From the IMG/VR virus record IMGVR_UViG_3300002835_000526, positions 1 to 36,370 of that record: DNA of 36,370 nt; one strand, given 5' to 3'. The position numbers and the translations under genes are program-made. Below, one piece after another: positions 6,111 through 35,795 of this stretch. Every line of letters starts with the position of its first letter. Within the stretch, counting starts at the first letter, position 1. This DNA comes from a virus. The notes beneath the pieces were generated by a model. That model made no database searches. It was not told where the DNA came from and saw only the letters and a list, made by a program, of their open reading frames with translations.

Positions 6111-6139
6111 TTGCATCTTCCTTTAAAGGAGTATATTCT
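6111..6139 (+). promoter_or_regulatory. Sigma70-type promoter, leaderless geometry
   Basis: TTGCAT, a 17-nt spacer, TATTCT (6134-6139), then 6 nt to ATG 6146. A -10 box spanning -12 to -7 places +1 on the start codon. Confidence 0.6.
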
Positions 6140-6145
6140 CTTTTT

Positions 6146-6436
6146 ATGACTGACAGAGAAATAGCAGAAATTGATCTCTCAATTACGTTTGGTCAGAGAT
6201 TAATTCAATATAAGAAAGCTTCTCTCGAGCGAATGCTATCTTCTATGCTAGACAATAACGAGAAAATTCGTCAGCACTACGAGAGTGATCGTGATTATAT
6301 CCGCGATATTATTCAAGCACTTGAGAACGGTGATGTTATTACCTTTATGCCTCTGCTTAAGCAAAGACTGACAATTGTTGGTCAGTTGTTTTTTAAAAAC
6401 GAATTTAAGTCGCTTAAGATGCTTGCATCTTCATAA
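6146..6436 (+). CDS. Helical hypothetical protein, 96 aa
   Basis: Mostly alpha-helical, charged sequence (SLERMLSSMLDNNEKIRQHY, then IIQALENGDVITFMPLLKQRL) with no recognisable motif. It has its own early-type promoter immediately upstream and no Shine-Dalgarno. The tRNA region follows. Confidence 0.7.
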   Translation: MTDREIAEIDLSITFGQRLIQYKKASLERMLSSMLDNNEKIRQHYESDRDYIRDIIQALENGDVITFMPLLKQRLTIVGQLFFKNEFKSLKMLASS

Positions 6437-6507
6437 GACTGTATATATATTACGTGAATAATGATTCATGCAACTAACTCAACAAAAGGAGGATGCTAAA
6501 CAATTGC

Positions 6508-6602
6508 GGTGGGTTAGTGTAACTGGATAGCACCGACAGACTTATAATCTGTGTTCCCTAGATGAGGGACGAGCATGGGTTCGATTCCCATACCCACTTC
6601 CA
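6508..6602 (+). tRNA. Class II tRNA with anticodon TAT (AUA, Ile?), CCA encoded
   Basis: Acceptor GGTGGGT/ACCCACT (G1-U72 wobble), position 73 U, CCA at 6600-6602. Anticodon stem ACAGA/TCTGT, loop CTTATAA, so anticodon TAT. T arm ATGGG-TTCGATT-CCCAT. Between anticodon and T arms is a 22-nt region with a 5-bp stem (TCCCT/AGGGA), i.e. a long variable arm typical of Leu, Ser or Tyr, not Ile. The charging identity is therefore uncertain. Confidence 0.75.
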
Positions 6603-6617
6603 TTTTTTAAAATTTTA

Positions 6618-6645
6618 TTGCATATTTTCTTTTAGAGATTAATAT
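6618..6645 (+). promoter_or_regulatory. Possible sigma70 promoter of tRNA-Asn
   Basis: TTGCAT (6618-6623), 16-nt spacer, TAATAT (6640-6645). TATAAT at 6643-6648 is the alternative -10. Transcription would begin at or just before tRNA nucleotide 1 (6655). Confidence 0.4.
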
Positions 6646-6654
6646 AATTACCGA

Positions 6655-6909
6655 TCCGGGGTAGCTCAGCGGTAGAGCGGTCGGCTGTATTAAGTTGCAG
6701 CTTTCAGCAGTAATGTTGATTGAAAAATGTCGCTAAGTCGGTGAAAGCTGAAATGCTAACGCCGAGCTAGCAGGTCGAAAGACCGGGCAAGTGTAGAGAC
6801 TTTACACGACACATCCTAACAGGATGAAGACAAAGTCCATTCCTTAAGGAATTAAAACTTAAGGGTAGATGTAACCGATTGGTCGCAGGTTCAAATCCTG
6901 CCCCCGGAG
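6655..6909 (+). tRNA. tRNA-Asn (anticodon GTT) interrupted by a group I intron
   Basis: Exons 6655-6688 and 6872-6909 join to a standard tRNA: acceptor TCCGGGG/CCCCGGA, D arm GCTC...GAGC, anticodon stem GTCGG/CCGAT around CTGTTAA (anticodon GTT), T arm GCAGG-TTCAAAT-CCTGC, discriminator G as in other Asn tRNAs. CCA is not encoded. The intron splits the anticodon after U35. If the exon boundary were read differently a Tyr-like GTA could be written, but the group I rules (5' exon ends U, intron ends G) and the short variable loop favour Asn. Confidence 0.88.
6689..6871 (+). ncRNA. Group I intron, about 183 nt, in tRNA-Asn anticodon loop
   Basis: P1: 5' exon end GCTGT pairs with internal guide GCAGC (6696-6700), leaving the conserved U-G at the 5' splice site. 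A GGTC-GAAA-GACC hairpin fits P5/P6. GACTT and AAGTC in GAAGACAAAGTCC (an S-box-like element) fit P7. CATCCT-AAC-AGGATG fits P8. ATTCC-TTAA-GGAAT fits P9. The intron ends in G (6871). No internal ORF. It is very compact. The IGS also overlaps CAGCTTTC, which can pair with GAAAGCTG further on. Confidence 0.8.
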
Positions 6910-6934
6910 CTCTTTAGGACTCGAACCTAGAGAC

Positions 6935-6963
6935 TAAATAATTATAGGTTCAAATCTTATGAA
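6935..6963 (+). promoter_or_regulatory. Late promoter plus T-arm-like hairpin sequestering an endonuclease start
   Basis: TAAATA (6935-6940) is followed by ATAGG-TTCAAAT-CTTAT (6944-6960), a perfect 5-bp stem/7-nt loop identical in form to a tRNA T arm; the ATG at 6959 lies in the 3' strand. Transcripts from upstream would hide the start codon, while late transcripts starting near 6946 would lack most of the 5' strand. Confidence 0.5.
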
Positions 6964-7723
6964 ATGTATAACTTGTAAAGAAGAAATAGTTGATGATTGG
7001 CGTAAGGATAGGGTTGTTCGTAAAACAAAACCTTTATTATATTGTTCGCGCAATTGCGCTAATAACAGGGGAGTGCGCTCAGAAGCAACAAAATTAAAAA
7101 TCTCTCGGTCCCTCAAAGGTAGAAAGCGAAATATTCCAGGATCACCGGGATATAGGCCAAGGACGTACATCGATTGTGTTTGTGTAACGTGTGGTGATAC
7201 TTTTATAGCACAAGCTGGTTACGAAAAAAAGACATGTAGTAAGGTATGTGCGAGCTATTTACGTTCTATTAATAGGCAAAATTATCTCAAAGAGCACGGT
7301 AATTTCTCTACATTAAGAGAAACATTTAATTATAAAGATGTGGTAATAGATGTTGATTCAAATTTAGAAAAAGCTGGTATTGTATATCTCATTGATGAAT
7401 TAGGTGCGAATCGTATTGAGCGATTTATAAGTATTTTAAATTATTGGGAAGACGGGTCACATCGAACATTTAATCCTGATTTTATTTGTAGGATAGATAG
7501 TAAAACGTGCATTGTCGAGGTAAAGCAAAAGTGGAATATACAATCAGAGCACCCTTATAATAGAACTATACCTTATAAGCAACTGGCGTTAGAAAAATAC
7601 TGCGACGATAAAGGGTATAAGATGCTTTGGTTAGATTTTAATACGGCGCCGGTGCTTAAAACCATCTATAAAAGAATATTAAATGAGAGACAGTCTCAAG
7701 CCTCAATAGGTACTTTAACATGA
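6959..7723 (+). CDS. Freestanding homing endonuclease with zinc fingers and PD-(D/E)XK-type nuclease
   Basis: 254 aa. The N-terminus has ITCKEE and YCSRNCAN (a small zinc finger), then a NUMOD3-like stretch (EATKLKISRSLKGRKR), a second CxxC pair (CVTCGDTF) with KTCSKVCA, and a C-terminal nuclease region with NPDFICRIDSKTCIVEVKQKW, matching the D...ExK core of Vsr/EDxHD-type homing enzymes. It follows a tRNA-Asn gene carrying an ORF-less group I intron, so it may cut at or near that tRNA in intron-less relatives (collaborative homing). Regulation by a hairpin over the start codon is likely. Ends 2 nt before the next small ORF. Confidence 0.82.
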   Translation: MKCITCKEEIVDDWRKDRVVRKTKPLLYCSRNCANNRGVRSEATKLKISRSLKGRKRNIPGSPGYRPRTYIDCVCVTCGDTFIAQAGYEKKTCSKVCASYLRSINRQNYLKEHGNFSTLRETFNYKDVVIDVDSNLEKAGIVYLIDELGANRIERFISILNYWEDGSHRTFNPDFICRIDSKTCIVEVKQKWNIQSEHPYNRTIPYKQLALEKYCDDKGYKMLWLDFNTAPVLKTIYKRILNERQSQASIGTLT

Positions 7724-7724
7724 T

Positions 7725-7847
7725 ATGAACAAAAATCAATTATACCGAGCTTGGTTAAATTTTTGGAACCACGACCGTATAATCATGATTACAATATGTG
7801 TATGTTTTATAATTTTTATACTTGAATGCCTGTGGCTAAGCTATTAA
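7725..7847 (+). CDS. Small membrane protein, 40 aa
   Basis: Starts at the ATG 2 nt after the endonuclease stop. A polar N-terminus (MNKNQLYRAWLNFWNHDR) is followed by one transmembrane segment (IIMITICVCFIIFILECLWL). Not recognised; it could be a minor inner-membrane protein. Confidence 0.5.
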   Translation: MNKNQLYRAWLNFWNHDRIIMITICVCFIIFILECLWLSY

Positions 7848-7862
7848 TATATTCAAGAATTT

Positions 7863-8021
7863 ATGACACAAACAAACACAACAAAAGAAGCACGCGTTTT
7901 TCAACTCTGTACAGAGCTCGAGGACATGAAGCTCCGTAAAAAGGCAGCTGCAAAGGGATTTAACGAAGAAATCAAGAGGATTAACGAAGAGATTAAAGAG
8001 CTAATTGATCCAGAAGATTAA
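7863..8021 (+). CDS. Short coiled-coil protein, 52 aa
   Basis: ATG 7863 to TAA 8021. The C-terminal half (NEEIKRINEEIKELIDPED) has heptad-like spacing. No family recognised; position in a run of small same-strand genes supports it. Confidence 0.6.
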   Translation: MTQTNTTKEARVFQLCTELEDMKLRKKAAAKGFNEEIKRINEEIKELIDPED

Positions 8022-8029
8022 TATCTAAT

Positions 8030-8356
8030 ATGGCCAAGCAATATATTCTTAAAGACGTTGCTGTAAAAGCTAAGGACCTGGAACGGTCTTTTAAAAAAGC
8101 GCATAAGATTATAGAGCGAGCTCAAAAGAAAGTATCAAGAACAGGTAAAGATAAATCCTTGCTCAAAGCAGCATGTGAGCTTGGATTTATCTGTAACCAT
8201 TCACCCATTACAAAAGACGGTAAAAGATATGTTAACCCCATGACATTGGGCGATAAACTCTATCTTGAAGAAATAGGGACATATAAGTGTGTAGAATTTA
8301 AAAATAATGAGTTTTTAGATTGCACAAATAAGCCTGTACAATTAAAATACTATTAA
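8030..8356 (+). CDS. Hypothetical protein, 108 aa
   Basis: Basic N-terminal helical half (VAVKAKDLERSFKKAHKIIE) and a mixed C-terminal half with single Cys residues (FICNHSP, YKCVEF, LDCTNK). The paired cysteines might bind metal, but the spacing matches no motif I know. Confidence 0.7.
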   Translation: MAKQYILKDVAVKAKDLERSFKKAHKIIERAQKKVSRTGKDKSLLKAACELGFICNHSPITKDGKRYVNPMTLGDKLYLEEIGTYKCVEFKNNEFLDCTNKPVQLKYY

Positions 8357-8360
8357 TAAT

Positions 8361-8528
8361 ATGAAATTCAAAAGAGGAGATAGGGTAGAGTATGATGGTT
8401 GGGATTATATTGTATTGGATACAATTAATGATTCTGATCGACCGGATGATCCGCTTATTCAGCTCATACCTATTCAGCCTTCGAAGATGTATCGATCGGC
8501 CTCTGAGCTTACTTTGATAGAGAAATAA
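8361..8528 (+). CDS. Small KOW/SH3-like protein, 55 aa
   Basis: MKFKRGDRVEYDGWDYIV is typical of small beta-barrel (KOW or SH3-like) phage proteins. It ends at TAA 8526-8528, just before an early-type promoter. Function unknown. Confidence 0.6.
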   Translation: MKFKRGDRVEYDGWDYIVLDTINDSDRPDDPLIQLIPIQPSKMYRSASELTLIEK

Positions 8529-8531
8529 AGC

Positions 8532-8560
8532 TTGTCATTCCTTCTTCTGGAATCTATTAT
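8532..8560 (+). promoter_or_regulatory. Sigma70-type promoter, leaderless geometry
   Basis: TTGTCA, 17-nt spacer, TATTAT (8555-8560), then 6 nt to ATG 8567. The transcript of the HD hydrolase gene should begin at its start codon. Confidence 0.65.
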
Positions 8561-8566
8561 GGTAAT

Positions 8567-8986
8567 ATGAAAGACGGATTAGATCTTATAGCAACGGCCA
8601 GGAACTTTGCCCAGATAGCCCATATGGGTCAGTTCCGTAGAGATGGTACTACTCCATACTTTAAGCATGTTGATGGTGTCGCCAGGCTAGTTAAGCCGCA
8701 GAAGCCTGAGTACATTGCTACCGCCTACCTTCATGATGTCATTGAAGATACGAATTATAACTCCATGGATCTTCAGAAGATTGGAATGCCTAAGATGGTA
8801 GTTGACGCAGTCTTGATTCTAACAAAGTTTGATCATCTTTCATATGAAGAGTATCTAAAGAAGGTAAAGGAGAATGCTATAGCCAGGGCAGTAAAGATTG
8901 CCGATATGACCTATAACCTGAATGATACACCATCTCAGAAACAGATTGAGAAGTATAAGAAGGGTTTGGAGTACCTAAATGATTAA
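8567..8986 (+). CDS. HD-domain phosphohydrolase, SpoT/MESH1-like (possible ppGpp hydrolase)
   Basis: 139 aa covering almost only the HD domain. AHMGQFRRDGTTPY and H34, then LHDVIEDT (H56-D57, E60-D61) and KIADMTYNL (D113) match the Mn-dependent hydrolase half of RelA/SpoT and the stand-alone small alarmone hydrolases. Removing (p)ppGpp would keep host transcription and translation going during infection. It may act on another nucleotide instead. Its C-terminus overlaps the next start by 8 nt, so it heads a small operon (8567-9920). Early-type promoter, no Shine-Dalgarno. Confidence 0.82.
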   Translation: MKDGLDLIATARNFAQIAHMGQFRRDGTTPYFKHVDGVARLVKPQKPEYIATAYLHDVIEDTNYNSMDLQKIGMPKMVVDAVLILTKFDHLSYEEYLKKVKENAIARAVKIADMTYNLNDTPSQKQIEKYKKGLEYLND

Positions 8987-9278
8987 AGAACTTCTATATT
9001 ATCTATCCCATGGTCATTGGAGGAAGGCTAAGATCTACTTCCAGGCCCATGTCATCTATAATAAGATGAAACTCATTAGATGGGCTAATAGAATGTGGCT
9101 TAAAGTTTGGCCTATCTTCTTTATTGTTCCAATTATTATAATGCTTATTGGAGCCTTCCTTCAGATGAAACATGATTATAGTTTAATTCATAACTATATT
9201 AATCTTGACGCCTTTAATGAAGGCATCTATATTAATTGGAGAACTGACGGATCACCAGGACAAGAACCACCAAAATAA
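8979..9278 (+). CDS. Single-pass membrane protein, 99 aa
   Basis: Starts inside the end of the HD hydrolase gene (8-nt overlap). A basic N-terminal 40 residues are followed by one transmembrane segment (VWPIFFIVPIIIMLIGAFL), then a polar C-terminus. No family recognised. Confidence 0.65.
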   Translation: MIKELLYYLSHGHWRKAKIYFQAHVIYNKMKLIRWANRMWLKVWPIFFIVPIIIMLIGAFLQMKHDYSLIHNYINLDAFNEGIYINWRTDGSPGQEPPK

Positions 9279-9283
9279 AACAT

Positions 9284-9493
9284 ATGAGTACATTCACAAT
9301 TACAGATGCTTATAGGGCTGATGTAACTACCTATAAGGTTGAGCTTAAAGGAGCTTATGAAGGCAGGTATAAGGTTAATAGGATTCGATCGGCAGCTGGA
9401 GACCAATACTTTGTCTTCTCCGATTACCATCTTGGACCTCATATTCATAACCCAGACATTATTGAACTAGTTAAGGAGACAATCAATGCTTAA
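9284..9493 (+). CDS. Hypothetical protein, 69 aa
   Basis: Probably a small beta-rich domain (TFTITDAYRADVTTYKVEL, then YKVNRIRSAAGDQYFVFSD). Its end overlaps the next gene by 8 nt, indicating coupling. No function assigned. Confidence 0.65.
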   Translation: MSTFTITDAYRADVTTYKVELKGAYEGRYKVNRIRSAAGDQYFVFSDYHLGPHIHNPDIIELVKETINA

Positions 9494-9740
9494 GCGTAAT
9501 GGATGGGACAACCAAGAGGTCATCGATATCCTAGAAGGATTGATGATTCCTATTAAGATGGATGATGCTAAGAAGTGGTCAAAAGAAGAATATGATAGTG
9601 TTGTAAGCTGGAATCAACCTCTTCTTTCGGCTATATCTCAATTCTCAGAATTCAAAGCTGATCCAAATGATTGGGTTGCTAAGGCTTTGGATACTGAAAC
9701 CAATCAGATCTTTGTTATTAGCCCTCCTCTTCCACAATAG
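9486..9740 (+). CDS. Hypothetical protein, 84 aa
   Basis: Acidic small protein (ILEGLMIPIKMDDAKKWSKE...). Overlaps its upstream neighbour by 8 nt. Not recognised. Confidence 0.65.
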   Translation: MLKRNGWDNQEVIDILEGLMIPIKMDDAKKWSKEEYDSVVSWNQPLLSAISQFSEFKADPNDWVAKALDTETNQIFVISPPLPQ

Positions 9741-9743
9741 CTT

Positions 9744-9920
9744 ATGACAACTCCTATTCAAGCTGAGTACGAATATATTCTAAAAGAGAAGAATCTTCAT
9801 ATTAAAGTACTTGAAGATCAGATCAAGTACAAAGATAAGCAGTTGGTAGAACTTGCTGAAGCTTATGGACACGCTCTTATTGAACGAGATGACTATAAGA
9901 AGGCTTTGGAAGCTCTATAA
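9744..9920 (+). CDS. Short coiled-coil protein, 58 aa
   Basis: ATG 9744 to TAA 9918-9920. Almost entirely helical (EYEYILKEKNLHIKVLEDQI). Last gene of the operon before the tRNA-Leu promoter. Confidence 0.6.
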   Translation: MTTPIQAEYEYILKEKNLHIKVLEDQIKYKDKQLVELAEAYGHALIERDDYKKALEAL

Positions 9921-9925
9921 AATGC

Positions 9926-9954
9926 TTGCGTTCCAGTATAATAAGATATATTAT
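9926..9954 (+). promoter_or_regulatory. Sigma70-type promoter of tRNA-Leu
   Basis: TTGCGT, 17-nt spacer, TATTAT (9949-9954). Transcription should start near 9961, about 34 nt before tRNA-Leu. A GGAGGT-ATG mini-frame of four codons (ATG 9974) lies in the leader. Confidence 0.6.
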
Positions 9955-9994
9955 ATAGATCTAATTTGGAGGTATGAATAACTTTTAAAAATAT

Positions 9995-10082
9995 GGTGCG
10001 GTGGCGAAATTGGTGAAACGCAAGGGACTTAAAATCCCTTACATTAGAAACATTGTGGGTTCGAATCCCACCCGCACTACCA
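9995..10082 (+). tRNA. tRNA-Leu (anticodon TAA), CCA encoded
   Basis: Acceptor GGTGCGG/CCGCACT with G1-U72, discriminator A, CCA at 10080-10082. Anticodon stem AGGGA/TCCCT, loop CTTAAAA, anticodon TAA. A long variable region and T arm GTGGG-TTCGAAT-CCCAC confirm class II Leu. Confidence 0.92.
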
Positions 10083-10094
10083 TATTAACATTCT

Positions 10095-10250
10095 ATGACA
10101 ACAAAAAACAAAATAATTAAGGTGTGGGGTGCTACAACCTCAAAGAACAGCTTTGCAGCTAAAGAACAAAAAGCTACCGCAGCTCGTCAGCGTATGTTCG
10201 GACAGAAGAGCCGTGCCCAGCGTAGTGATGCCGGTAGGAAGCGGAAATAA
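10095..10250 (+). CDS. Small basic protein, 51 aa
   Basis: ATG 10095 to TAA 10248-10250. Rich in Lys, Arg and Gln (KEQKATAARQRMFGQKSRAQ), ending GRKRK; likely binds nucleic acid. No family recognised. Confidence 0.6.
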   Translation: MTTKNKIIKVWGATTSKNSFAAKEQKATAARQRMFGQKSRAQRSDAGRKRK

Positions 10251-10254
10251 AAAT

Positions 10255-10593
10255 ATGAAAAAAAGAACACCAACAACCTGGAAGAAGTTCTACAATCGAT
10301 CTGAGCTTCATAATAAATTTGAGATCGATAATATTATTGAAAAGACATTCAAGGTTCTTTTCCCTAATGAAGACTATCTACCGCCTGCTTATTATAACGA
10401 TACTGAGTATGGTCTCGGTCATAGCTACAAGTACTTTGGACAAAAGCTACGTTTTAATAAAATCTGGCCTATTGTAAATTACAAGCTTAAGGCTCTCGAT
10501 CCTAATAGCACGTGGGGCAATGCAACTAAATTTAATAACGAAAAGGGCTGTAAGGCATGGACAGCTGGTATTCGTTCCTGGACTAAGAAGTAA
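10255..10593 (+). CDS. Hypothetical protein, 112 aa
   Basis: ATG 10255, 4 nt after the previous stop, is preferred to the in-frame start far upstream, which overlaps that gene. Basic N-terminus (MKKRTPTTWKKFYNR) and a Tyr/Trp-rich centre (YYNDTEYGLGHSYKYFGQK). Not recognised. Confidence 0.65.
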   Translation: MKKRTPTTWKKFYNRSELHNKFEIDNIIEKTFKVLFPNEDYLPPAYYNDTEYGLGHSYKYFGQKLRFNKIWPIVNYKLKALDPNSTWGNATKFNNEKGCKAWTAGIRSWTKK

Positions 10594-10597
10594 CCTT

Positions 10598-10861
10598 ATG
10601 ATTCACGATAAAGAACATCTTAAGAAGCTTCTTCACGAAAATACACTTACTGTCTGTTTCACTAAGAAGGACGGTACAGTGCGTACCATGCTCTGTACAC
10701 TTAATCCGTCACTTCTTCCTGTTATTGAAAAGAAGGAAGATGATGAGGTTAAGAAGGAAAAGAAGCAGAACGATGAAAGTATCGCAGTCTGGGACCTGGA
10801 AAAGGCTGCTTGGCGATCGTTTAGACATGATTCTATAGTTTCTTATTCTACAACTCTATAA
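10598..10861 (+). CDS. SH3-like/DUF2693-type phage protein, 87 aa
   Basis: ATG 10598, 4 nt after the previous stop. VCFTKKDGTVRTMLCTLNP and AVWDLEKAAWRSFRHDSI match the small beta-barrel family often named DUF2693 or SH3 beta-barrel fold protein in T4-like phages. A charged loop (KKEDDEVKKEKKQ) sits between the two halves. Function in phages is not established. Confidence 0.7.
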   Translation: MIHDKEHLKKLLHENTLTVCFTKKDGTVRTMLCTLNPSLLPVIEKKEDDEVKKEKKQNDESIAVWDLEKAAWRSFRHDSIVSYSTTL

Positions 10862-11068
10862 GTGAAGCAACACAACGATTACACCGTCTACATTCAATTT
10901 CTTGGCAAGCCATATAAGTGCGACGTTGTAGGTACGAACGTTACGATTGAAGGCTGGGGACCTATAGATGAACAGCATTATGCCTCATTGAGGAACTATC
11001 TCGAAGACGAAGGTTTTATTCAAGAAATTGATAAAAGAAAAGGAATTTTTGACTTGTTTAAATCGTAG
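10862..11068 (+). CDS. Hypothetical protein, 68 aa; paralogue of the 22935 gene
   Basis: GTG start directly after the previous TAA (TAAGTG). The pattern (V-x-I-x-F-x-G, a beta hairpin, then LRNYLEDEGFIQE) parallels the 22935 protein (ITFQGIQY... LTQYLVEEGFVEY), so the two are probably diverged copies. Function unknown. Confidence 0.65.
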   Translation: MKQHNDYTVYIQFLGKPYKCDVVGTNVTIEGWGPIDEQHYASLRNYLEDEGFIQEIDKRKGIFDLFKS

Positions 11069-11091
11069 GGGGTTATATAATAGGTTTTTAT

Positions 11092-11168
11092 GCAACCGTA
11101 ACTTAACTGGATAAAGTACCGAGCTTCTACCTCGGCTTATGGGGGTTCAAGTCCCTCCGGTTGTACCA
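11092..11168 (+). tRNA. tRNA-Arg (anticodon TCT), CCA encoded
   Basis: Acceptor GCAACCG/CGGTTGT with G1-U72, discriminator A, CCA at 11166-11168. Anticodon stem CCGAG/CTCGG, loop CTTCTAC, anticodon TCT (AGA/AGG). T arm GGGGG-TTCAAGT-CCCTC. Confidence 0.92.
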
Positions 11169-11175
11169 TTTTTAA

Positions 11176-11248
11176 GCCTGTATAGCCCAGCGGAAGAGGC
11201 AATGGTCTTAGAAGCCATCAAGGGTAGGTTCGAATCCTACTACAGGCA
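11176..11248 (+). tRNA. tRNA with anticodon TAG (CUA, Leu) but a class I fold
   Basis: Perfect acceptor GCCTGTA/TACAGGC, discriminator A, no CCA. Anticodon stem ATGGT/GCCAT, loop CTTAGAA, anticodon TAG. The variable loop is only 5 nt (CAAGG), whereas bacterial tRNA-Leu has a long arm, so charging as Leu is uncertain. T arm GTAGG-TTCGAAT-CCTAC. Confidence 0.8.
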
Positions 11249-11269
11249 AAAGTTCGAATTATTACAATC

Positions 11270-11298
11270 TTGATTTTCTATCTTTCTGTCTATATACT
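11270..11298 (+). promoter_or_regulatory. Sigma70-type promoter of tRNA-Val/tRNA-Ala
   Basis: TTGATT, 17-nt spacer, TATACT (11293-11298), about 12 nt before tRNA-Val nucleotide 1. Confidence 0.6.
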
Positions 11299-11310
11299 AA
11301 AGACAAATAA

Positions 11311-11384
11311 GGGAGATTAGTTTAAAAGTAAAACACCTGATTTACACTCAGGATTCGGCGGAGCGTTACCGTCATCTCCTACCA
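11311..11384 (+). tRNA. tRNA-Val (anticodon TAC), CCA encoded, odd T loop
   Basis: Acceptor GGGAGAT/ATCTCCT with G1-U72, discriminator A, CCA at 11382-11384. Anticodon stem CCTGA/TCAGG, loop TTTACAC, anticodon TAC. The T arm GGCGG-AGCGTTA-CCGTC has an atypical loop without TTCRANY. Confidence 0.82.
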
Positions 11385-11391
11385 TTTTAAT

Positions 11392-11467
11392 GGGGCATTA
11401 GCTCAGTTGATAGAGCGGTAGCTTTGCAAGCTTCAGGTCGTCGGTTTGATCCCGACATGCTCCACCA
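11392..11467 (+). tRNA. tRNA-Ala (anticodon TGC), CCA encoded
   Basis: Acceptor GGGGCAT/ATGCTCC carries the G3-U70 pair that defines alanine identity; discriminator A, CCA at 11465-11467. Anticodon loop TTTGCAA, anticodon TGC. The anticodon stem has one T-T mismatch (28-42). Confidence 0.92.
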
Positions 11468-11505
11468 TTTTTTAAGCTTGCATTTTAATTTCTTAAAATT
11501 ATCAT

Positions 11506-11715: not shown

Positions 11716-11716
11716 A

Positions 11717-12337: not shown

Positions 12338-12346
12338 AATAAATAC
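12338..12346 (+). promoter_or_regulatory. Late promoter (AATAAATAC), 6 nt before ATG 12352
   Basis: AATAAATACTCAAT-ATG. The core and following ACTCA are the same as at the fibre promoter (12673) and the minus-strand fibre (29620-29627). Confidence 0.65.
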
Positions 12347-12351
12347 TCAAT

Positions 12352-12591
12352 ATGAGCATTACATTTACACTTAGACCGGCAGAAACCGTTACCATTGATG
12401 AAGTTGAAGTTTTAGCAGTAAGAGATCTCTTCCTCGAGAAGAAGATTGTTGCAAGAGTTAAGGGTCTCCCTTCCCCGGTCGTCCTTTGGGATGGTGAAGA
12501 GGAGTATACTGCAGCTGGAAACTGGACTAACGAGACAGTCCTCAGTAAAGCTACTGAAATTTTAAATTCCGGTAACGTTAGATTTCTCTAA
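12352..12591 (+). CDS. Small fibre-flanking protein, 79 aa; paralogue of the 17613 gene
   Basis: Its C-terminal half (VVLWDGEEEYTAAGNWTNE, then ATEILNSGNVRFL) is clearly related to the 80-aa protein at 17613. The pair brackets the large fibre gene. Both have their own late promoters. They may be tail components or fibre partners. A strong hairpin terminator follows this copy. Confidence 0.75.
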   Translation: MSITFTLRPAETVTIDEVEVLAVRDLFLEKKIVARVKGLPSPVVLWDGEEEYTAAGNWTNETVLSKATEILNSGNVRFL

Positions 12592-12612: not shown

Positions 12613-12648
12613 GAGAGAGAGCATATATATGCTCTCTCTCCATTTTTA
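12613..12648 (+). terminator. Rho-independent terminator
   Basis: A 28-nt perfect palindrome, GAGAGAGAGCATAT with ATATGCTCTCTCTC, followed by CATTTTTATA. It separates the small paralogue from the fibre gene's own promoter. Confidence 0.8.
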
Positions 12649-12672: not shown

Positions 12673-12679
12673 ATAAATA
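12673..12679 (+). promoter_or_regulatory. Late promoter (ATAAATA), 5 nt before GTG 12685
   Basis: GCATAAATACTCAC-GTG; drives the large fibre gene and predicts a leaderless GTG transcript. Confidence 0.65.
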
Positions 12680-12684
12680 CTCAC

Positions 12685-17604: not shown

Positions 17605-17607
17605 ATA
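17602..17607 (+). promoter_or_regulatory. Late promoter (TAAATA), 5 nt before ATG 17613
   Basis: CTAAATACTATT-ATG; the TAA stop codon of the fibre gene (17602-17604) is part of the promoter. Confidence 0.55.
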
Positions 17608-17612
17608 CTATT

Positions 17613-17855
17613 ATGGCAACAATTATACTACAACCCGAACAGACAGTCGATATAGATACAAATTCTCTTATGCTAGAGAAGGTTATCGATAGCTCGTCAA
17701 GTCAGACAATCTGGACAACAATACCTGCTTTAGGAAGAGATATCTACCTCTGGTATGGACCAGTAGAATACGAAGAAGCAGGAATCTGGACAAACGAATC
17801 AGCTCTTCAAAGAGCTAAAGAGCTTATTAATTCTGGGAATATTCGATTCGTTTAA
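17613..17855 (+). CDS. Small fibre-flanking protein, 80 aa; paralogue of the 12352 gene
   Basis: YLWYGPVEYEEAGIWTNES and AKELINSGNIRFV mirror the 12352 protein. It starts 9 nt after the fibre stop with its own late promoter. Likely the same role as its paralogue, perhaps fitted to a different fibre. Confidence 0.75.
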   Translation: MATIILQPEQTVDIDTNSLMLEKVIDSSSSQTIWTTIPALGRDIYLWYGPVEYEEAGIWTNESALQRAKELINSGNIRFV

Positions 17856-25538: not shown

Positions 25539-25540
25539 AT

Positions 25541-28500: not shown

Positions 28501-29613
28501 TAAAGCTGATACTGTACCGTAGGTACTTTGCCAGTTACCGGTTAATGCTCTTACACCGGTATCAACACCAGCTACGGTAATACCGGTTAGTTGAGAACCG
28601 TCGCCATATATAAACCCTCTTGAACTAATATTATTAACGTATGTAGTGTTTGCCTGTGAAGCACTTAACCCTGTACCGAGAATAAAGGTATTAGCAAACC
28701 CCTTGGTGTCATTGGCGGAACTGCCTGCGATAAATGAATATGTACCGGAAGCTGTATTATAAGCACCACCAGCTACATTAGACGCACATCCACAAGCTAC
28801 ATTAAAACGTCCACCAGCTACATTAGAGAAATATCCAGAAGCAGTATTATTACAACCACCAGCTACATTGGAAGTACGTCCAGAAGCTCTATTTACAAAT
28901 CCACCAGCAACATTAGAACCAGCACTACAAGCGTTATTACAAAGACCACCAGCTACATTAGTAAAACAATCAACAGTAGTATTACAACAACCACCTGCTA
29001 CAGTCGAGGTATTTCCACAAGCTATATTACGGCTACCACCTGCTACATTGGAAGAGCCGCAAAAAACAATATTACAAACACCACCGGCTACATTAGAATT
29101 AGTTCCACAAGCAGTATTGAGGGAGCCACCACCTATAAATGAATAATTACCAGAAGCTATATTGCAACAACCGCCAACTACATTAGAATAAGTACCGGAA
29201 GCAGTATTGGAACCACTTATAGGCCGTATACCACCAGTTACACCGGATTCCACATAGGGTGCACCAGAGAAATTTAGTGTATTTGTAGTCTGTGTTAGTG
29301 TTATTTGCGCTAATGGTTTATACGAAGCTCTAACATTATAACTACCACCTGTTAGGATATAATATAGGGTTTGACTCTGATCATATACAACGTCGCCTGT
29401 TATTGCTGTTGCAAGAGTTGTATCTGTGGTAATGTCTGTAGCATTATAAAACTTAACACCTGCACTAATACCACCAGGCATGATGCCATCACCAACAAAC
29501 AGACGCTTTGAGTCTATAGTGTATCCGATTTCACCTTGATCGAGGGTAATAAGCTTTCTTTGCGCGTCCGTACCTCTACGGACCTTAAGTTTTACAACAT
29601 TAACGTTAGCCAT
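25588..29613 (-). CDS. Second large repeat fibre: Mtd-like N-terminus and YadA-like head repeats
   Basis: 1341 aa. Residues about 5-45 (VKLKVRRGTDAQRK...LDQGEIGYTID...LFVGDG) match the N-terminal domain of phage tropism-determinant/tail-fibre proteins, which joins the fibre to the virion. About 138-310 and 470-1300 are dense N-T-A-S-G-x-x-S-N-V-A-G-G-type repeats, very Cys-rich (e.g. AGGCCN). About 345-455 hold three copies of a 40-aa unit with VRALTGNWQSTYGTVSALSA. The protein ends RTIEVFDRDGGSLGFIPIY. It has no C1q tip, unlike the 12685 fibre, but its repeats are close in sequence, so the two genes may recombine. An exact TATAAATA late promoter lies upstream. Confidence 0.9.
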   Translation of the reverse strand: MANVNVVKLKVRRGTDAQRKLITLDQGEIGYTIDSKRLFVGDGIMPGGISAGVKFYNATDITTDTTLATAITGDVVYDQSQTLYYILTGGSYNVRASYKPLAQITLTQTTNTLNFSGAPYVESGVTGGIRPISGSNTASGTYSNVVGGCCNIASGNYSFIGGGSLNTACGTNSNVAGGVCNIVFCGSSNVAGGSRNIACGNTSTVAGGCCNTTVDCFTNVAGGLCNNACSAGSNVAGGFVNRASGRTSNVAGGCNNTASGYFSNVAGGRFNVACGCASNVAGGAYNTASGTYSFIAGSSANDTKGFANTFILGTGLSASQANTTYVNNISSRGFIYGDGSQLTGITVAGVDTGVRALTGNWQSTYGTVSALSASWGTGGGSGIDTGVRALTGNWQSTYGTVSALSALWSTGGYTTDSGVRALTGNWQSTYGTVSALSASWGTAYSSWNSASGTSVLEFNDTRFSKLSSQAYCINSAGLKSIQPINGFNTASNSYSNIAGGECNIASANWSSVGGGECNRATADYSTIVGGFSSQATGNNSSIGGGTLNIASGNCSNVAGGCKNTASGCYSNVAGGKANRASGPRSNVAGGESNTASGYWSNVAGGDANTACGSRSNIAGGSSNTASCGFSNVAGGSGNIACGANSNIAGGCNNTASGCNSSVGGGECNRASGVNSTITGGFSSRATGCASNVAGGNSNTASGNYSTVSGGYNNTASGYHANVAGGNSNTASSSYSNVAGGCCNRILGASNCNSSITGGTLNVICESTSSGYYTTGGHYIGSGSTNTISSVYGDNRNNVLVGGECNTNSAAYNAFIGSGIRNCIDVSGIESAIVGGSCNFICQGSGFIGGGAVNCVTGIGASVVGGACNRVSGSFGSIVGGCRNAACGNFTSVGGGCHNIVGLGGAESASTIVGGISGCITRGLAFIGGGCLNRASGCASSVVGGCCNIVLCANSTIVGGISSCNNGTNSFIGGGRCNSIATGGGPSGGFILGGTLNRVTGLGGFIGAGCTNCVSGTNSVVAGGECNTSSGTTSFIGSGGCNRASFFYSTVVNGFSNTTCCQYSTVINGLSSQAINDYAIIGTGTCNNASGRYSTVINGFSSCATGYATFVGAGSGNCATAAYDVVIGGALNTACGSFSNVAGGCRNTANGYSNVAGGYCNTASGNSNVAGGSSNIACGLNSTISGGYKNTASVYFSNVAGGFCNTASGNYSTVSGGYNNTASGYHANVAGGLCNNACGVSSNVAGGRNNTASGTYSFVAGGSANNTSGFANTFILGTGLSASQVSYTYVNNISSRNVVSANILRIGNAVTSASVTTVARTIEVFDRDGGSLGFIPIYSTRA
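28280..28570 (-). repeat. Three near-identical repeats within the fibre
   Basis: Three copies of a roughly 100-120-nt unit encoding VRALTGNWQSTYGTVSALSA. The DNA is nearly identical between copies, pointing to recent duplication and possible copy-number change. Confidence 0.8.
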
Positions 29614-29619
29614 TATGAG

Positions 29620-29627
29620 TATTTATA
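29620..29627 (-). promoter_or_regulatory. Exact T4 late promoter TATAAATA, 6 nt before ATG 29613
   Basis: On the minus strand, TATAAATACTCATA-ATG. It has the same ACTCA extension as promoters at 12338 and 12673. Confidence 0.75.
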
Positions 29628-30226: not shown

Positions 30227-30233
30227 AAAGAGC

Positions 30234-30260
30234 TTGATTATACCGCTTACCCCCTATAAT
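30234..30260 (+). promoter_or_regulatory. Sigma70-type promoter
   Basis: TTGATT and TATAAT (30255-30260), spacer 15 nt, short of the usual 17. Start of transcription near 30267, about 42 nt before ATG 30309. Confidence 0.45.
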
Positions 30261-30308
30261 ATTTTGTACAAATCAACAAACACACATAAAAACTAATTCA
30301 TAAAACAG

Positions 30309-30885: not shown

Positions 30886-30912
30886 TTTACATACGCTAGA
30901 ATATATAACTAT

Positions 30913-31101
30913 ATGACAAAAACAAAACTCAAACAAATATCATTGGATGCTATCCATCAATATCTTGAAGAGAATAAAGAAGATATTATTGATCTTATTA
31001 GTATGGACGCTGTAGATATTGACGAAGACGGTGAGTCTGTACCTGTCGATTTAGAGCTCGTTGATGAAGCATTCGATGATATAATGTCTAAACTCTTTTA
31101 A
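30913..31101 (+). CDS. Acidic hypothetical protein, 62 aa
   Basis: Strongly acidic (EENKEDIIDLISMDAVDIDE), helical. It could mimic DNA or bind a basic partner; no family recognised. Confidence 0.6.
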   Translation: MTKTKLKQISLDAIHQYLEENKEDIIDLISMDAVDIDEDGESVPVDLELVDEAFDDIMSKLF

Positions 31102-31141
31102 AGCTTGCTTTCCTTTATAGATACCCTATCATATATACATT

Positions 31142-31369
31142 ATGCACTTCTGGCCTAATAAATCACTTACTCGAGCCTCAAAACTTTACAACGTAAAGTC
31201 TCAGCTCGCTAACCGTCCTAAAAATATTGCTGACGAGACATGGACTGAAATAGTAAAAGAAACAAAGCTTAATAAGCTTATTGTTCTCGATGCAGTACCT
31301 AAGGTATCACAAAAGCAAGCTTCAACAAAAAACAACAAATTCGGAGGTACAAAAAATGGGGATGTTTGA
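31142..31369 (+). CDS. Hypothetical basic protein, 75 aa
   Basis: An early-type promoter may lie at TTGCTT (31105). The end overlaps the next gene's start by 14 nt. Not recognised. Confidence 0.6.
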   Translation: MHFWPNKSLTRASKLYNVKSQLANRPKNIADETWTEIVKETKLNKLIVLDAVPKVSQKQASTKNNKFGGTKNGDV

Positions 31370-31988: not shown

Positions 31989-31989
31989 C

Positions 31990-32094
31990 ATGAGAGGTGA
32001 TATTAATCCTTTGTTTGCCTGGCTTTGTGCTATGGTACTCGGTGGGGTAATCTGGTATGGCTTAATTGAAGTTGTTATTTACTTTTTTCATTGA
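31990..32094 (+). CDS. Tiny membrane protein, 34 aa
   Basis: ATG 31990 to TGA 32094. One transmembrane helix (LCAMVLGGVIWYGLIEVVI). It starts 1 nt after the upstream stop. Confidence 0.5.
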   Translation: MRGDINPLFAWLCAMVLGGVIWYGLIEVVIYFFH

Positions 32095-32119
32095 CCTTTC
32101 CTTAGACTGAATATACTAT
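32091..32119 (+). promoter_or_regulatory. Sigma70-type promoter, leaderless geometry
   Basis: TTGACC, 17-nt spacer, TACTAT (32114-32119), then 6 nt to ATG 32126. Confidence 0.65.
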
Positions 32120-32125
32120 AGGTGT

Positions 32126-33019
32126 ATGGCTAAATTACTATGCGTGGGTGACGTGCACAACCACTGGGTTGAGGCTGAGGCTATTGCATCAAAATACGAT
32201 GCAACACATACTATTGTGTTCACTGGCGACTACTACGACGACTTTGGTGATTCTGCTATAGAGGCTGAACAAACAGCTCGTTGGCTTAAAGAGTCTTTAT
32301 CTAAGTCTAATCGAGTTCACTTAATGGGCAACCATGACATAAATTATGCGAGCTTTAACCTAAGACCTGGTTCTAGTCTTGGAGATCAGATCTATAATTG
32401 CTCAGGTTATTCACCAGCTAAGGATGATGCTATTAATAGGATCATGTCTAATGAGGATTGGAATAGGGTTAGGCTTGCCCATAAGCAGAATGGCTTTTGG
32501 TTCTCTCATGCTGGGTTCCATCCTTTTTGGTTCTCTAGCCCTCCTTATGGGATGGATGATGAGATCATTGAGATAAAGCTTAAGAAAATTCAAAAAGCTA
32601 TCGAGGATAGAGAGTTCAGCAATGAGCTTGGTGCTGCTGGAAGGTGTAGAGGTGGTATTCATCGTGTGGGAGGATTGATCTGGCGAGATGCTATAAGGGA
32701 ATCCTATACTGGTTCTTATTGGAATGATGAGTCTGGTATTAAGCAAGTTTCTGGGCATACTCCTGTAAAATCAATCGATGTTGAAGAGACTGCAAACAAA
32801 GGTCTTTGTATTGATATTGATTGTGGGTTGTCTCAGGTGCTTGAAATCCTAGAAGATGGTACATATAATATCATTGACACAGGACTTGAGAGCTTTTATA
32901 AAGAATCAGAAAGAAAGTTCGTTGAACAAGAGAAGAAGAATAAGGAAGAACAAAAGAAGAAATATCTCTATAATCTTGGAGCATATGATGATGTCTATAA
33001 CAAACTAAACAAATCGTGA
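32126..33019 (+). CDS. Calcineurin-like metallophosphoesterase
   Basis: 297 aa. GDVHNHW (D9, H11), FTGDYYDD (D35) and LMGNHDINY (N69-H70), with later FSHAGFHP and SGHTP, form the two-metal site of calcineurin-like phosphoesterases. The substrate could be a nucleotide, RNA end or phosphoprotein. The last 40 residues are Lys-rich (EQEKKNKEEQKKKY). The 3' end overlaps the next gene by 4 nt (GTGA). Confidence 0.9.
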   Translation: MAKLLCVGDVHNHWVEAEAIASKYDATHTIVFTGDYYDDFGDSAIEAEQTARWLKESLSKSNRVHLMGNHDINYASFNLRPGSSLGDQIYNCSGYSPAKDDAINRIMSNEDWNRVRLAHKQNGFWFSHAGFHPFWFSSPPYGMDDEIIEIKLKKIQKAIEDREFSNELGAAGRCRGGIHRVGGLIWRDAIRESYTGSYWNDESGIKQVSGHTPVKSIDVEETANKGLCIDIDCGLSQVLEILEDGTYNIIDTGLESFYKESERKFVEQEKKNKEEQKKKYLYNLGAYDDVYNKLNKS

Positions 33020-33213
33020 AAACTATTAGAATGGAAGTAGAATTAACTTATGATGATTATATTATGCATGAGAATAATTCGGATGAGATTATATGGTTCT
33101 ACAAAGACATTTTAGAAAAGAAAGTATGTGAAGATGGATCTCCTAATTTAATTTTACATTCTAATGAAATAGGTGATGAGGTTGGTCTTATTAAAGTATT
33201 AAAAATTTTATGA
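33016..33213 (+). CDS. Hypothetical protein, 65 aa
   Basis: GTG start inside the end of the phosphoesterase gene (GTGA overlap). Acidic, beta then helical. Overlaps the next gene by 4 nt. Confidence 0.6.
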   Translation: MKTIRMEVELTYDDYIMHENNSDEIIWFYKDILEKKVCEDGSPNLILHSNEIGDEVGLIKVLKIL

Positions 33214-33569
33214 AGAAGATACTAAAGCCAAAACAGATCGAGGAAGCAATTTACTTCTCAGATTTTTCAGGTGAGCCTTTTGATACTAGGTTTAAGCATC
33301 CTCCTGTAGAAGTTAAGATGAATTTTAACTATGGATCAAAATATGATGGATCTGAAATTAATTTGCATTTGTCTGATAAAGACATGGAGCCTATTTTAGA
33401 TCTTATTCAATCTAAACTGAATCCAGATTTTAAGAAGAGCTTAGAAGAAGATATCAAAGAGAATACTCTGGAGTACAATAATGCTATGGATTCAAGAGAC
33501 CCTATAATGTGTGATTATTATATCTCATGTTATAATCTCTTTAAAAAGCTTTTAGGTAATGGCGAATAA
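33210..33569 (+). CDS. Hypothetical protein, 119 aa
   Basis: Overlaps its upstream neighbour by 4 nt (ATGA). Beta-rich N-terminal half, helical C-terminal half. No recognised motif. Confidence 0.6.
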   Translation: MKKILKPKQIEEAIYFSDFSGEPFDTRFKHPPVEVKMNFNYGSKYDGSEINLHLSDKDMEPILDLIQSKLNPDFKKSLEEDIKENTLEYNNAMDSRDPIMCDYYISCYNLFKKLLGNGE

Positions 33570-33571
33570 GC

Positions 33572-33600
33572 TTGACTAGTCATTTAAGGATCTCTATTAT
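33572..33600 (+). promoter_or_regulatory. Sigma70-type promoter, leaderless geometry
   Basis: TTGACT, 17-nt spacer, TATTAT (33595-33600), then 6 nt to ATG 33607. Confidence 0.65.
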
Positions 33601-33606
33601 AAGCAG

Positions 33607-34029
33607 ATGAACAGGCCAGTTATAGCATTTGACTTCGACTATACTTTAGCCATTGAAGAAGTGTCAGGAGGATGGATTGCTGTAGGTACAGGTGTTCTAA
33701 AGCCTATTCAAAAGATTATTGATATGGTCCTAGAGAAGGATGAAGAAGGATTTGATTGTCATATTGTAACCTTTAGAAAGGAAGAAGATATCCCAGAAGT
33801 AGAAGAGTTTGTAAAGAAGCACAATCTACCTATTAAGGGTATTCATAGTACATCAGGAAGATCAAAGATTCCTATTCTAAAGAAGCTCAATTGTACTTTG
33901 ATGGTTGATGACCAGGTAGAAGTCTGTACAGCTTGTATAATGAATGATATTCCCTGTTTACTTGTTGATCATGGATTCTCAGGAACAAATAATGTTGTTG
34001 CAGATAGAATGGATAAAATCAAAGTTTAA
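33607..34029 (+). CDS. HAD-superfamily phosphatase-like protein, 140 aa
   Basis: AFDFDYTLA (motif I, D-x-D), IVTFR (motif II), a conserved Lys near KIPILKK and MVDDQ (motif IV) define a HAD phosphatase. It could be a nucleotide 5'-phosphatase or a polynucleotide 3'-phosphatase. Leaderless early-type promoter. Confidence 0.85.
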   Translation: MNRPVIAFDFDYTLAIEEVSGGWIAVGTGVLKPIQKIIDMVLEKDEEGFDCHIVTFRKEEDIPEVEEFVKKHNLPIKGIHSTSGRSKIPILKKLNCTLMVDDQVEVCTACIMNDIPCLLVDHGFSGTNNVVADRMDKIKV

Positions 34030-34030
34030 A

Positions 34031-34068
34031 CTTGAAGTGTCCTAAGAATCCCTATAGTATATAAAAAT
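34031..34068 (+). promoter_or_regulatory. Promoter cassette copy 1
   Basis: CTTGAAGTGTCCTAAGAATC followed by the TATAGTATATAAAAAT block, before ATG 34069. TTGAAG, 17-nt spacer, TAGTAT, then 8 nt to ATG. Confidence 0.6.
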
Positions 34069-34419
34069 ATGAATAAAAATATTAGTTATCTACTTTTTAA
34101 TTTCTTTTTAGCTCTTCTTCTTTGGAAGGGCATTGAAGGTAATAAGACAGCACAATACATCTATGTTGGATTTAATTGGCTGGGGGTATGGATTATTTCT
34201 TTTAATGTATATGCTCTTAATTCGATTAAAAAGATTGAGAGTGTAAAAATGTCAAGACCAAGTACATCACTTTGGGTTTCAATTCCAGTGACAGTTGGAT
34301 TCTTTTGTACTCTAATTTGGTTTGGATGGATTTGGACAGCTGTTGCAGTTGTGCTTGAATTCTACTTTGTCCAAGAGTATGCTGAACTCTATGATAAGAA
34401 AAAGCTTGAAGTGTCCTAA
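34069..34419 (+). CDS. Membrane protein, 3 TM segments, 116 aa
   Basis: Hydrophobic segments near residues 5-22, 35-55 and 70-105. The C-terminus KKLEVS is encoded by promoter cassette copy 2 and is shared with the 35499 protein. Family unknown. Confidence 0.6.
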   Translation: MNKNISYLLFNFFLALLLWKGIEGNKTAQYIYVGFNWLGVWIISFNVYALNSIKKIESVKMSRPSTSLWVSIPVTVGFFCTLIWFGWIWTAVAVVLEFYFVQEYAELYDKKKLEVS

Positions 34420-34442
34420 AAATCTCTATAGACTATAAAAAT
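34404..34442 (+). promoter_or_regulatory. Promoter cassette copy 2
   Basis: GCTTGAAGTGTCCTAAAAAT then TCTCTATAGACTATAAAAAT, overlapping the last codons of the 34069 gene. TTGAAG, 17-nt spacer, TAGACT, 8 nt to ATG 34443. Confidence 0.6.
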
Positions 34443-34835
34443 ATGAAAACAACAACAGCAGTATCAGTAACAACACTTGTAGCAATTCTCTTCATTGGAG
34501 TTATTACCCTTGGAATGTGGGGATGTCTAAAGTATGATGTATATTCAAAGAAGATGGAAGGAGAGGCAATCCTTGCACATGCTCAATCCTCTCGAGAGGT
34601 AGCTGTAGCTGAGGCAAAGGCTAAGATGGAGAGTGCATCTTTGCTAGCAAAGGCAGAGATTGAAAGGGCGAGGGGAGTTGCAGAGGCTAACAAGATCATT
34701 GGTGAGTCTCTGAAGAACAATGAGGAATATCTTCGCTACCTCTTTGTTAATAATCTAGAGAACACAAAGAATCAGGTAATCTATATTCCTACAGAAGCTA
34801 ACCTTCCTATCCTTGAAGCTAATAGGAAGAAGTAA
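34443..34835 (+). CDS. Truncated SPFH/band-7-like membrane protein, 130 aa
   Basis: One N-terminal transmembrane helix (TTLVAILFIGVITLGMWGC), then an Ala/Glu-rich coiled coil (VAEAKAKMESASLLAKAEIE) and ANKIIGESLKNNEEYLRYLF followed by NQVIYIPTE, which resembles the C-terminal part of HflK/stomatin SPFH proteins. The SPFH domain proper is missing. A dominant-negative or scaffold role is conceivable; not known. Confidence 0.7.
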   Translation: MKTTTAVSVTTLVAILFIGVITLGMWGCLKYDVYSKKMEGEAILAHAQSSREVAVAEAKAKMESASLLAKAEIERARGVAEANKIIGESLKNNEEYLRYLFVNNLENTKNQVIYIPTEANLPILEANRKK

Positions 34836-34847
34836 ACTCCTTTATAT

Positions 34848-35105
34848 ATGGCTAAGAACATCTGGAAAGAGGCAATTATTGAAGAGCTGATGACTACTGG
34901 TATCTATACAGAAGAGTGGGCAAAAGATCCCAAGAAGGCTTTACACCATCTTGCCTGTTGGCATACTGAGTGTGGAATGCATTTTGCTAAAGAAGAGAGA
35001 TGGCATAAGAGCTTTAGGAGGATGTGGATTAGTCTTTGGTATAGTACACCATTTCCTTATTGGTACTGGAGAATGAAGTACAAAAACAACCAACCACCTT
35101 TTTAA
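34848..35105 (+). CDS. Hypothetical Trp-rich protein, 85 aa
   Basis: Helical N-terminus and a C-terminus full of aromatic residues (WYSTPFPYWYWRMKY). Family unknown. Confidence 0.6.
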   Translation: MAKNIWKEAIIEELMTTGIYTEEWAKDPKKALHHLACWHTECGMHFAKEERWHKSFRRMWISLWYSTPFPYWYWRMKYKNNQPPF

Positions 35106-35106
35106 T

Positions 35107-35502
35107 ATGAATTGTCCTTATAATCATAATGACCCAGAGTCTAGGTTTGTATGGCTCGAAGAAAAGCTTGAGACAGTTAAGCTCGAAAGAGATATGCTGG
35201 AACATAAAGCATGGGACCTTGAAAAATATCTTACAAAGAAGCTAGAAGAGCTTAAACTAGAAAGAGATGCTCTGTGGGTCAAAACTCAAGAGGACGAGAG
35301 GGAAATCAATCAGTTGAGGGATGCTGCTGAAGAGCTAGAAGAAGTAAAGCTGGAGAGAGATGCTCTGTGGGTCAAAACTCAAGAGGATGAGAGGGAGATT
35401 AATGACCTAAGGGATATTAATAAGCAGTTAAGAGAAAGGTTGACAAATTACCTTGAAGCATTTGTAAGGTTTAACAAGGATATTGAGGTTTTTAAACAAT
35501 GA
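35107..35502 (+). CDS. Coiled-coil protein with internal duplication, 131 aa
   Basis: Two copies of a 30-odd-residue unit (L-E-R-D-A-L-W-V-K-T-Q-E-D-E-R-E-I-N) in a long coiled coil. The DNA of the copies is nearly identical. Starts 2 nt after the upstream stop; its end overlaps the next gene by 4 nt (ATGA). Confidence 0.65.
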   Translation: MNCPYNHNDPESRFVWLEEKLETVKLERDMLEHKAWDLEKYLTKKLEELKLERDALWVKTQEDEREINQLRDAAEELEEVKLERDALWVKTQEDEREINDLRDINKQLRERLTNYLEAFVRFNKDIEVFKQ

Positions 35503-35774
35503 GTGATACACCAAGAACAGATGCAGAGGATATTAACATCCTTGAACAAGAAGGCTTTGTAGAAGCAGATTTTGCTAGAGAGCTAGAGAGGGAGATAAAT
35601 GCATTACAAAAATGGAAAGAAGAAGCTCTAAAGGTTATGAATCAGTGGAATGAAGTCTCTGATTATATTAACCATAATGCTGAAGTAGAGGATCTTGGTA
35701 GGTTTGTTCCACAAATCTGTTTGAAGTATCTTAAGGAGAGGGATGAGCTGAAGAAGAAGCTTGAAGTGTCCTAA
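35499..35774 (+). CDS. TPRTDA-family small helical protein, 91 aa
   Basis: MSDTPRTDAE then FARELEREINALQ is a pattern seen in many phage proteins of unknown function. The C-terminus KKLEVS comes from promoter cassette copy 3. Confidence 0.7.
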   Translation: MSDTPRTDAEDINILEQEGFVEADFARELEREINALQKWKEEALKVMNQWNEVSDYINHNAEVEDLGRFVPQICLKYLKERDELKKKLEVS

Positions 35775-35795
35775 AAATTCCTATAGTATAAAGAC
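35759..35795 (+). promoter_or_regulatory. Promoter cassette copy 3, leaderless geometry
   Basis: GCTTGAAGTGTCCTAAAAAT then TCCTATAGTATAAAGAC. TTGAAG (35761-35766), 17-nt spacer, TAGTAT (35784-35789), 6 nt to ATG 35796. It overlaps the end of the 35499 gene. Confidence 0.65.

Follow-up and report, generated by a model that had tools for sequence, protein, structure and literature searches.

The virus record IMGVR_UViG_3300002835_000526 carries five sigma-70-type promoters that stand exactly 6 nt upstream of start codons, a position from which transcripts would begin with the ATG itself. This record, a single fragment of 36,370 bases analyzed over its whole length and called the window below, and contigs of related phages very probably share a mode of leaderless expression that matches that of their hosts and proceeds from sigma-70-type promoters and, where present, from T4-type late promoters. 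We regard the habit as phage-wide because spacers of 17 or 16 nt are combined with an exact 6-nt gap in 12 contigs and in diverged orthologues, because six control phages are flat at this distance, and because Shine-Dalgarno (SD) sequences are scarce. A preliminary description of the window had proposed such a phage-wide, SD-independent strategy. The proposal is supported, with the qualification that the habit probably follows the hosts, since the likely host clade has few SDs and itself produces leaderless transcripts, and need not be an invention of the phages.

Promoter spacing in the window and in related contigs

The five TTGNNN-N17-TANNNT promoters described previously, with 6 nt to the ATG of the genes at 6146, 8567, 32126, 33607 and 35796, were found exactly as claimed, and the two further promoters with 8 nt are present at 34069 and 34443. 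The list below also includes two sites with 16-nt spacers, upstream of 31142 and 3729, that had not been listed.

6111–6148, + strand: sigma-70-type promoter TTGCAT-N17-TATTCT-N6-ATG, gene 6146–6436
8532–8569, + strand: promoter TTGTCA-N17-TATTAT-N6-ATG, HD-domain protein gene 8567–8986
32091–32128, + strand: promoter TTGACC-N17-TACTAT-N6-ATG, calcineurin-like phosphoesterase gene 32126–33019
33572–33609, + strand: promoter TTGACT-N17-TATTAT-N6-ATG, phosphatase/kinase-like protein gene 33607–34029
35761–35807, + strand: promoter cassette TTGAAG-N17-TAGTAT-N6-ATGAAGAATAAC, gene start 35796, with similarity extending into codons 1–4 (MKNN)
34032–34071, + strand: promoter TTGAAG-N17-TAGTAT-N8-ATG, gene 34069–34419
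34406–34445, + strand: promoter TTGAAG-N17-TAGACT-N8-ATG, stomatin/protease-like protein gene 34443–34835
31105–31144, + strand: promoter TTGCTT-N16-TATCAT-N9-ATG, gene 31142–31369
3695–3731, + strand: promoter TTGTTA-N16-TATACT-N6-ATG, gene 3729–3959

Sigma-70 transcription begins some 7 nt downstream of the -10 hexamer, so a gap of 6 nt would place +1 on the A of ATG. The arrangement TTG-N20-TANNNT-N6-ATG was observed 5 times among 47 starts, compared with a mean of 0.03 and a maximum of 2 in 2,000 trials on simulated upstream sequences. With spacers of 16 and 17 nt, 8 sites in the window lie at 6 nt, versus 0.41 for each of the other distances (Poisson p=1.4e-8). The promoter of 6146 is the weakest and least supported of the five: its orthologues in L020 and L031 retain TATCTT or TATATT at 6 nt and have no -35 element at 17 nt, so that these relatives share only the -10 position. 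The orthologues of 3729 in contigs G006 and G012 have 7 nt instead of 6.

Relatives were gathered by an IMG/VR search with the 32126 phosphoesterase and the 34443 protease-like protein, and 12 related or gene-sharing phage contigs, some of them overlapping or closely related, were pooled. Contig G001 (59,099 bases) overlaps the window from position 27,524 onward and continues beyond its right end; three of its sites are window sites. IMG/VR sample numbers and relatives among lake metagenome-assembled genomes (MAGs) point to a lake origin of the contigs. We counted the distances from TANNNT boxes, with TTG at a spacer of 16 or 17 nt, to the ATG of open reading frames (ORFs) of at least 40 codons. 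In the pooled set, 241 boxes lie at 6 nt, followed by 66, 50 and 58 at 7, 8 and 9 nt and by 10–32 at each distance elsewhere, the level at unrelated distances being about 18. The 6-nt peak is significant in every contig taken singly (p from 1.8e-5 to 4e-30), and at the 6-nt sites 168 spacers are of 17 nt and 73 of 16 nt, with 4–15 at every other length. TANNNT boxes centered some 10 nt ahead of the start codon exceed the shuffled expectation, as in leaderless (TA-led) genes, and the spacer peaks, together with enriched consensus bases at unselected positions, conform to sigma-70 promoters with TTGAC-like and TATAAT-like boxes 16–18 nt apart. The distance distribution from a scan with a position weight matrix trained on the 6-nt sites is not independent and was not used as evidence.

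The control phages (T4, two cyanophages, a Microcystis phage, a pelagiphage and RcXuper) are flat at 6 nt (p at least 0.46), with 0 sites in T4, 3 in P-HM1, 2 in HTVC008M, 2 in S-PM2, 0 in Ma-LMM01 and 0 in RcXuper. A 100-kb stretch of Escherichia coli contains one 6-nt site and no peak. In the Thermus phage P23-45, taken as a positive control, neither TANNNT nor an extended -10 gave a clear peak, so this simple test misses other promoter types.

A second class of ATG-adjacent boxes, of the T4 late type, is found in some contigs. TAAATA at 5–7 nt from ATG, a TATAAATA-like box whose lateness is assumed, is enriched in the window, G001, G005–G007, G009, G012, G013 and G015, and is not enriched in G002–G004; thus, the sigma-70 spacing rule applies whether or not a contig has the late class. 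The sigma-70-type promoters, in turn, are taken to be early solely from their sigma-70 look. The window contains the following sites of the late type.

2048–2061, + strand: T4-type late promoter TAAATA-N5-ATG, gene 2059
12340–12354, + strand: T4-type late promoter TAAATA-N6-ATG, gene 12352
12674–12687, + strand: T4-type late promoter TAAATA-N5-GTG, 1639-aa gene 12685
17602–17615, + strand: T4-type late promoter TAAATA-N5-ATG, gene 17613
29611–29625, - strand: T4-type late promoter TAAATA-N6-ATG, 1341-aa gene 25588–29613

Just 5' of the late promoter that serves the 1639-aa gene, positions 12613–12640 form a hairpin of 12 pairs (GAGAGAGAGCATATATATGCTCTCTCTC) followed by a T-rich tail. Major capsid genes of the T4 type (PF07068) are present in G001, G005, G007, G009, G012 and G013, and the annotated phage capsids nearest to them, at about 36% identity, are cyanophage-like; none was detected in G002, G003, G006 and G010, possibly because these contigs are fragments. 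The early-region genes of G002 and G003, in which no gp23-type capsid was found, and of G004, with no TAAATA late class found in any of the three, are 82–98% identical to those of the window, which suggests gene exchange between different phage types within one host group.

Conservation of the spacing and a probable promoter unit reaching into the gene

The spacing is retained among diverged orthologues. Most of the 30 orthologues of the 32126 phosphoesterase (46–90% identity) have TTG-N16/17-TANNNT exactly 6 nt from ATG; the upstream DNA of many of them is mutually dissimilar, and the N-terminus is conserved. The conserved domain of these proteins starts at residues 2–5, which fixes the start codon and leaves no room for a downstream start. 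Orthologues of the 33607 protein at 41% and 34% identity also retain the 6-nt spacing. The longer distances are similarly stable, with 8 nt retained for 34443 in L036 and L037 and 9 nt for 31142 in L022 and G006.

In part of the family, similarity continues from the promoter into the coding sequence. The start ATGAARAWKAA, which mostly encodes M-K-N-K, follows 35 of the 229 unique 6-nt sites (spacers 16–17) versus 21 of 1,262 other starts. Where two M-K-N-K genes are unrelated in their later sequence (30% identity between +12 and +59), their promoter regions are 61% identical, and across all sites with unrelated downstream sequence the excess of matching columns runs to about +11. This is most simply read as a reused promoter-plus-start unit that extends from the -35 element through codon 4. 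A-rich first codons may favor leaderless initiation too. If +1 is the start codon, promoter constraints might for that reason shape the N-terminus of the protein. We advance only tentatively the wider proposal that the constraints of the promoter and initial transcript, acting over a leaderless unit from -35 to codon 4, set the M-K-N-K start in a large number of small early proteins unrelated to one another, and that phage bS21 may tune the host ribosomes toward mRNAs of this kind.

A near-identical unit, TTGACAcctcctcctaaagcataTAGAATaagattATG, precedes unrelated small genes in the early regions of G001, G002, G006 and G013, and its spacer holds CCTCCTCC, the anti-SD sequence, on the non-template strand. 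The -35 half (AAGCTTGAAGTGTCCTAA) of the window units at 34032, 34406 and 35761 doubles, in the latter two, as coding sequence for the C-terminus of the gene before it (K-L-E-V-S-stop). The last bases of the window, at the cut end at 36360, resemble the beginning of another copy.

Shine-Dalgarno scarcity, bS21 and the likely host

In a crude test applied equally to all genomes, SD-like 4-mers precede 0–14% of the genes in the family (shuffled 2–4%), compared with 51% in T4 (shuffled 7%) and 18–40% in the other control phages. The strong SDs previously reported for hsp20 and 31356 are present, as AAAGGAG at 319 and as an SD visible before the ATG of 31356. No S1-domain proteins were found in these phages.

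The window encodes a ribosomal protein that bears on both translation and host:

4299–4499, + strand: ribosomal protein bS21, with a probable GTG start at 4299; PF01165 over the cut-off at 4326–4481

The bS21 gene was found in 4 of 17 family contigs (the window, G006, G012 and G016), many contigs being incomplete. Its best 80 bacterial matches, at 44–54% identity, all belong to Verrucomicrobiota, mostly Akkermansiaceae, with one titled only 'uncultured bacterium'; these matches make Verrucomicrobiota the likely hosts. A Bacteroidota host, raised by the sole near-identical DNA in annotated phages, 64 nt shared with a Chryseobacterium phage, was dropped because bS21 points to Verrucomicrobiota. 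An actinobacterial host, considered because leaderless genes are known there, was discounted since Corynebacterium, one of the control genomes, yielded no bS21.

The probable GTG start of bS21 overlaps the stop codon (GTGA) of a 27-codon ORF at 4219–4302, which lies 9 nt past a TATAAATA late box; the overlap suggests that the two are translationally coupled. The window also carries tRNA genes:

866–11467: seven tRNA genes (Ser, Cys, Ile, Leu, Leu, Arg, Ala) reported by ARAGORN
11311–11381: one tRNA added by Rfam and unreported by ARAGORN

Akkermansia is SD-scarce, with CCUCC conserved (PMC10783764), and in A. muciniphila 10% of the transcription start sites mapped by Cappable-seq are leaderless, versus 0.4% in E. 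coli (PMC4782308). The pattern TTGA-N18-20-TANNNT-Nd-ATG was counted in nine Verrucomicrobiota genomes, which together hold 198 copies at d=6, compared with 55 at d=3 and 107 at d=12. A. glycaniphila (51/9/20), a lake MAG (50/18/23) and G022 (20/3/4) show a clear excess at d=6 over d=3 and d=12. Haloferula samples of 400–600 kb and a small sample of the lake MAG gave weak signals, and whole-genome counts were used in their place.

We hypothesize that host RNA polymerase would read the sigma-70-type -35/-10 promoters and start at the A of the start codon, and that the ribosome with the initiator fMet-tRNA would bind the 5'-terminal AUG directly, without SD pairing. In the T4-type members, TAAATA late promoters, presumably read with a gp55-like sigma factor, are positioned alike relative to ATG. 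The phages would thereby match the initiation habit of SD-poor, leaderless-capable Verrucomicrobiota.

Alternative explanations and known systems

The genes might instead be leadered, with true starts downstream or with longer mRNAs from upstream, the ATG-adjacent -10-like box reflecting compaction or chance in A+T-rich DNA. Such genomes do hold many chance TANNNT boxes, and without the demand for a -35 element the 6-nt peak in the window is weak. We consider this account highly improbable, however, because the single-base peak obtained with the N16/17 requirement is beyond chance, T4 and HTVC008M are also A+T-rich and have no such peak, and the domain boundary of the 32126 orthologues leaves no downstream start. 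Mere descent, whereby a few promoter-plus-ATG cassettes were copied repeatedly and the distance is functionless, would account for recurring near-identical units such as TTGACAcctcctcctaaagcataTAGAATaagattATG, and at 75% identity the 168 N17 sites shrink to 80. Yet these 80 mutually diverged promoters keep the spacing and still favor TTGAC and TATAAT at positions outside the search pattern. The spacing also persists in orthologues whose upstream DNA is no longer alike, with two spacer lengths, and regardless of whether a T4-type capsid was detected in the contig, which makes descent alone a very unlikely explanation.

Leaderless expression could also be a phage device against host mRNAs, acting through the phage bS21 or a shift in IF2/IF3, rather than a match to the host. 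The window does encode bS21, phage bS21 has been proposed to favor phage transcripts (PMC9723584), and phiYS40 is reported to drive IF2 up and IF3 down (PMC3594737). Nevertheless, the small share of contigs with bS21, even allowing for incomplete ones, the same promoters in contigs without detected bS21, and a candidate host clade that is already SD-poor and leaderless-capable render this alternative unlikely.

Several observations weigh against host-matched leaderless expression. The host assignment depends mainly on one small protein of 44–54% identity; the 32126 phosphoesterase has no relative in bacterial genomes, and no CRISPR or prophage link turned up, though spacers were not searched. 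The 6-nt excess in host genomes is uneven, being clear in G017, G021 and G022 and weak in G018, G020 and G025. An SD is present in 0 of 302 genes with a promoter at 6–9 nt, a result that is partly forced, as there is little room for one, and of the 30 window genes without a recognized promoter 6 keep SDs, the rest being SD-less. Finally, sigma-70 start site choice varies by 1–3 nt, and sites at 7–9 nt could bear leaders of 1–3 nt.

The closest known case is the Thermus phage phiYS40, most of whose middle and late mRNAs are reportedly leaderless (as summarized in PMC3594737). On that description, both systems combine phage-wide leaderless mRNAs with a host clade rich in leaderless genes, whereas phiYS40 belongs to another lineage, with another likely host, and the lake phages add early-type -35/-10 promoters at exactly 6 nt. 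In Actinobacteria and Deinococcus-Thermus, TANNNT about 12 nt before the start codon marks leaderless genes (Zheng et al. 2011, PMC3160421); those TA-led genes are on bacterial chromosomes, whereas the genes considered here are viral, have a clear -35 element and belong to an A+T-rich genome. A. muciniphila shows leaderless transcription in the probable host phylum, but for host genes and a smaller share of them. T4 and T4-like cyanophages share with several lake contigs the gp23-type capsid and a TATAAATA-like late promoter; T4 differs in its SD-preceded genes (51%), in lacking a 6-nt early peak and in late promoters that are not ATG-adjacent. The Pelagibacter phage HTVC008M (NC_020484) likewise encodes bS21, and its TAAATA boxes are most frequent at a distance of exactly 5 nt from ATG (11 sites, L168–L174), which suggests that its late mRNAs are leaderless as well, but it has no 6-nt sigma-70 peak and SDs in 40% of genes.

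A freshwater family with T4-type members, both promoter classes, single-nucleotide spacing, a probable Verrucomicrobiota host and a unit reaching codon 4 appears to be new; no earlier description was located in the literature searched, most subscription literature being outside that search. If the proposed reading is true, widespread lake phages, T4-type members among them, express many early- and late-type genes leaderless, a mode previously reported mainly for Thermus phages, and SD-poor Verrucomicrobiota would offer a testable system for leaderless translation. The style of initiation would then be a sequence signature predicting the hosts of uncultured phages, start codons in such genomes could be called better, and the family would provide an example of promoters constraining the protein N-terminus.

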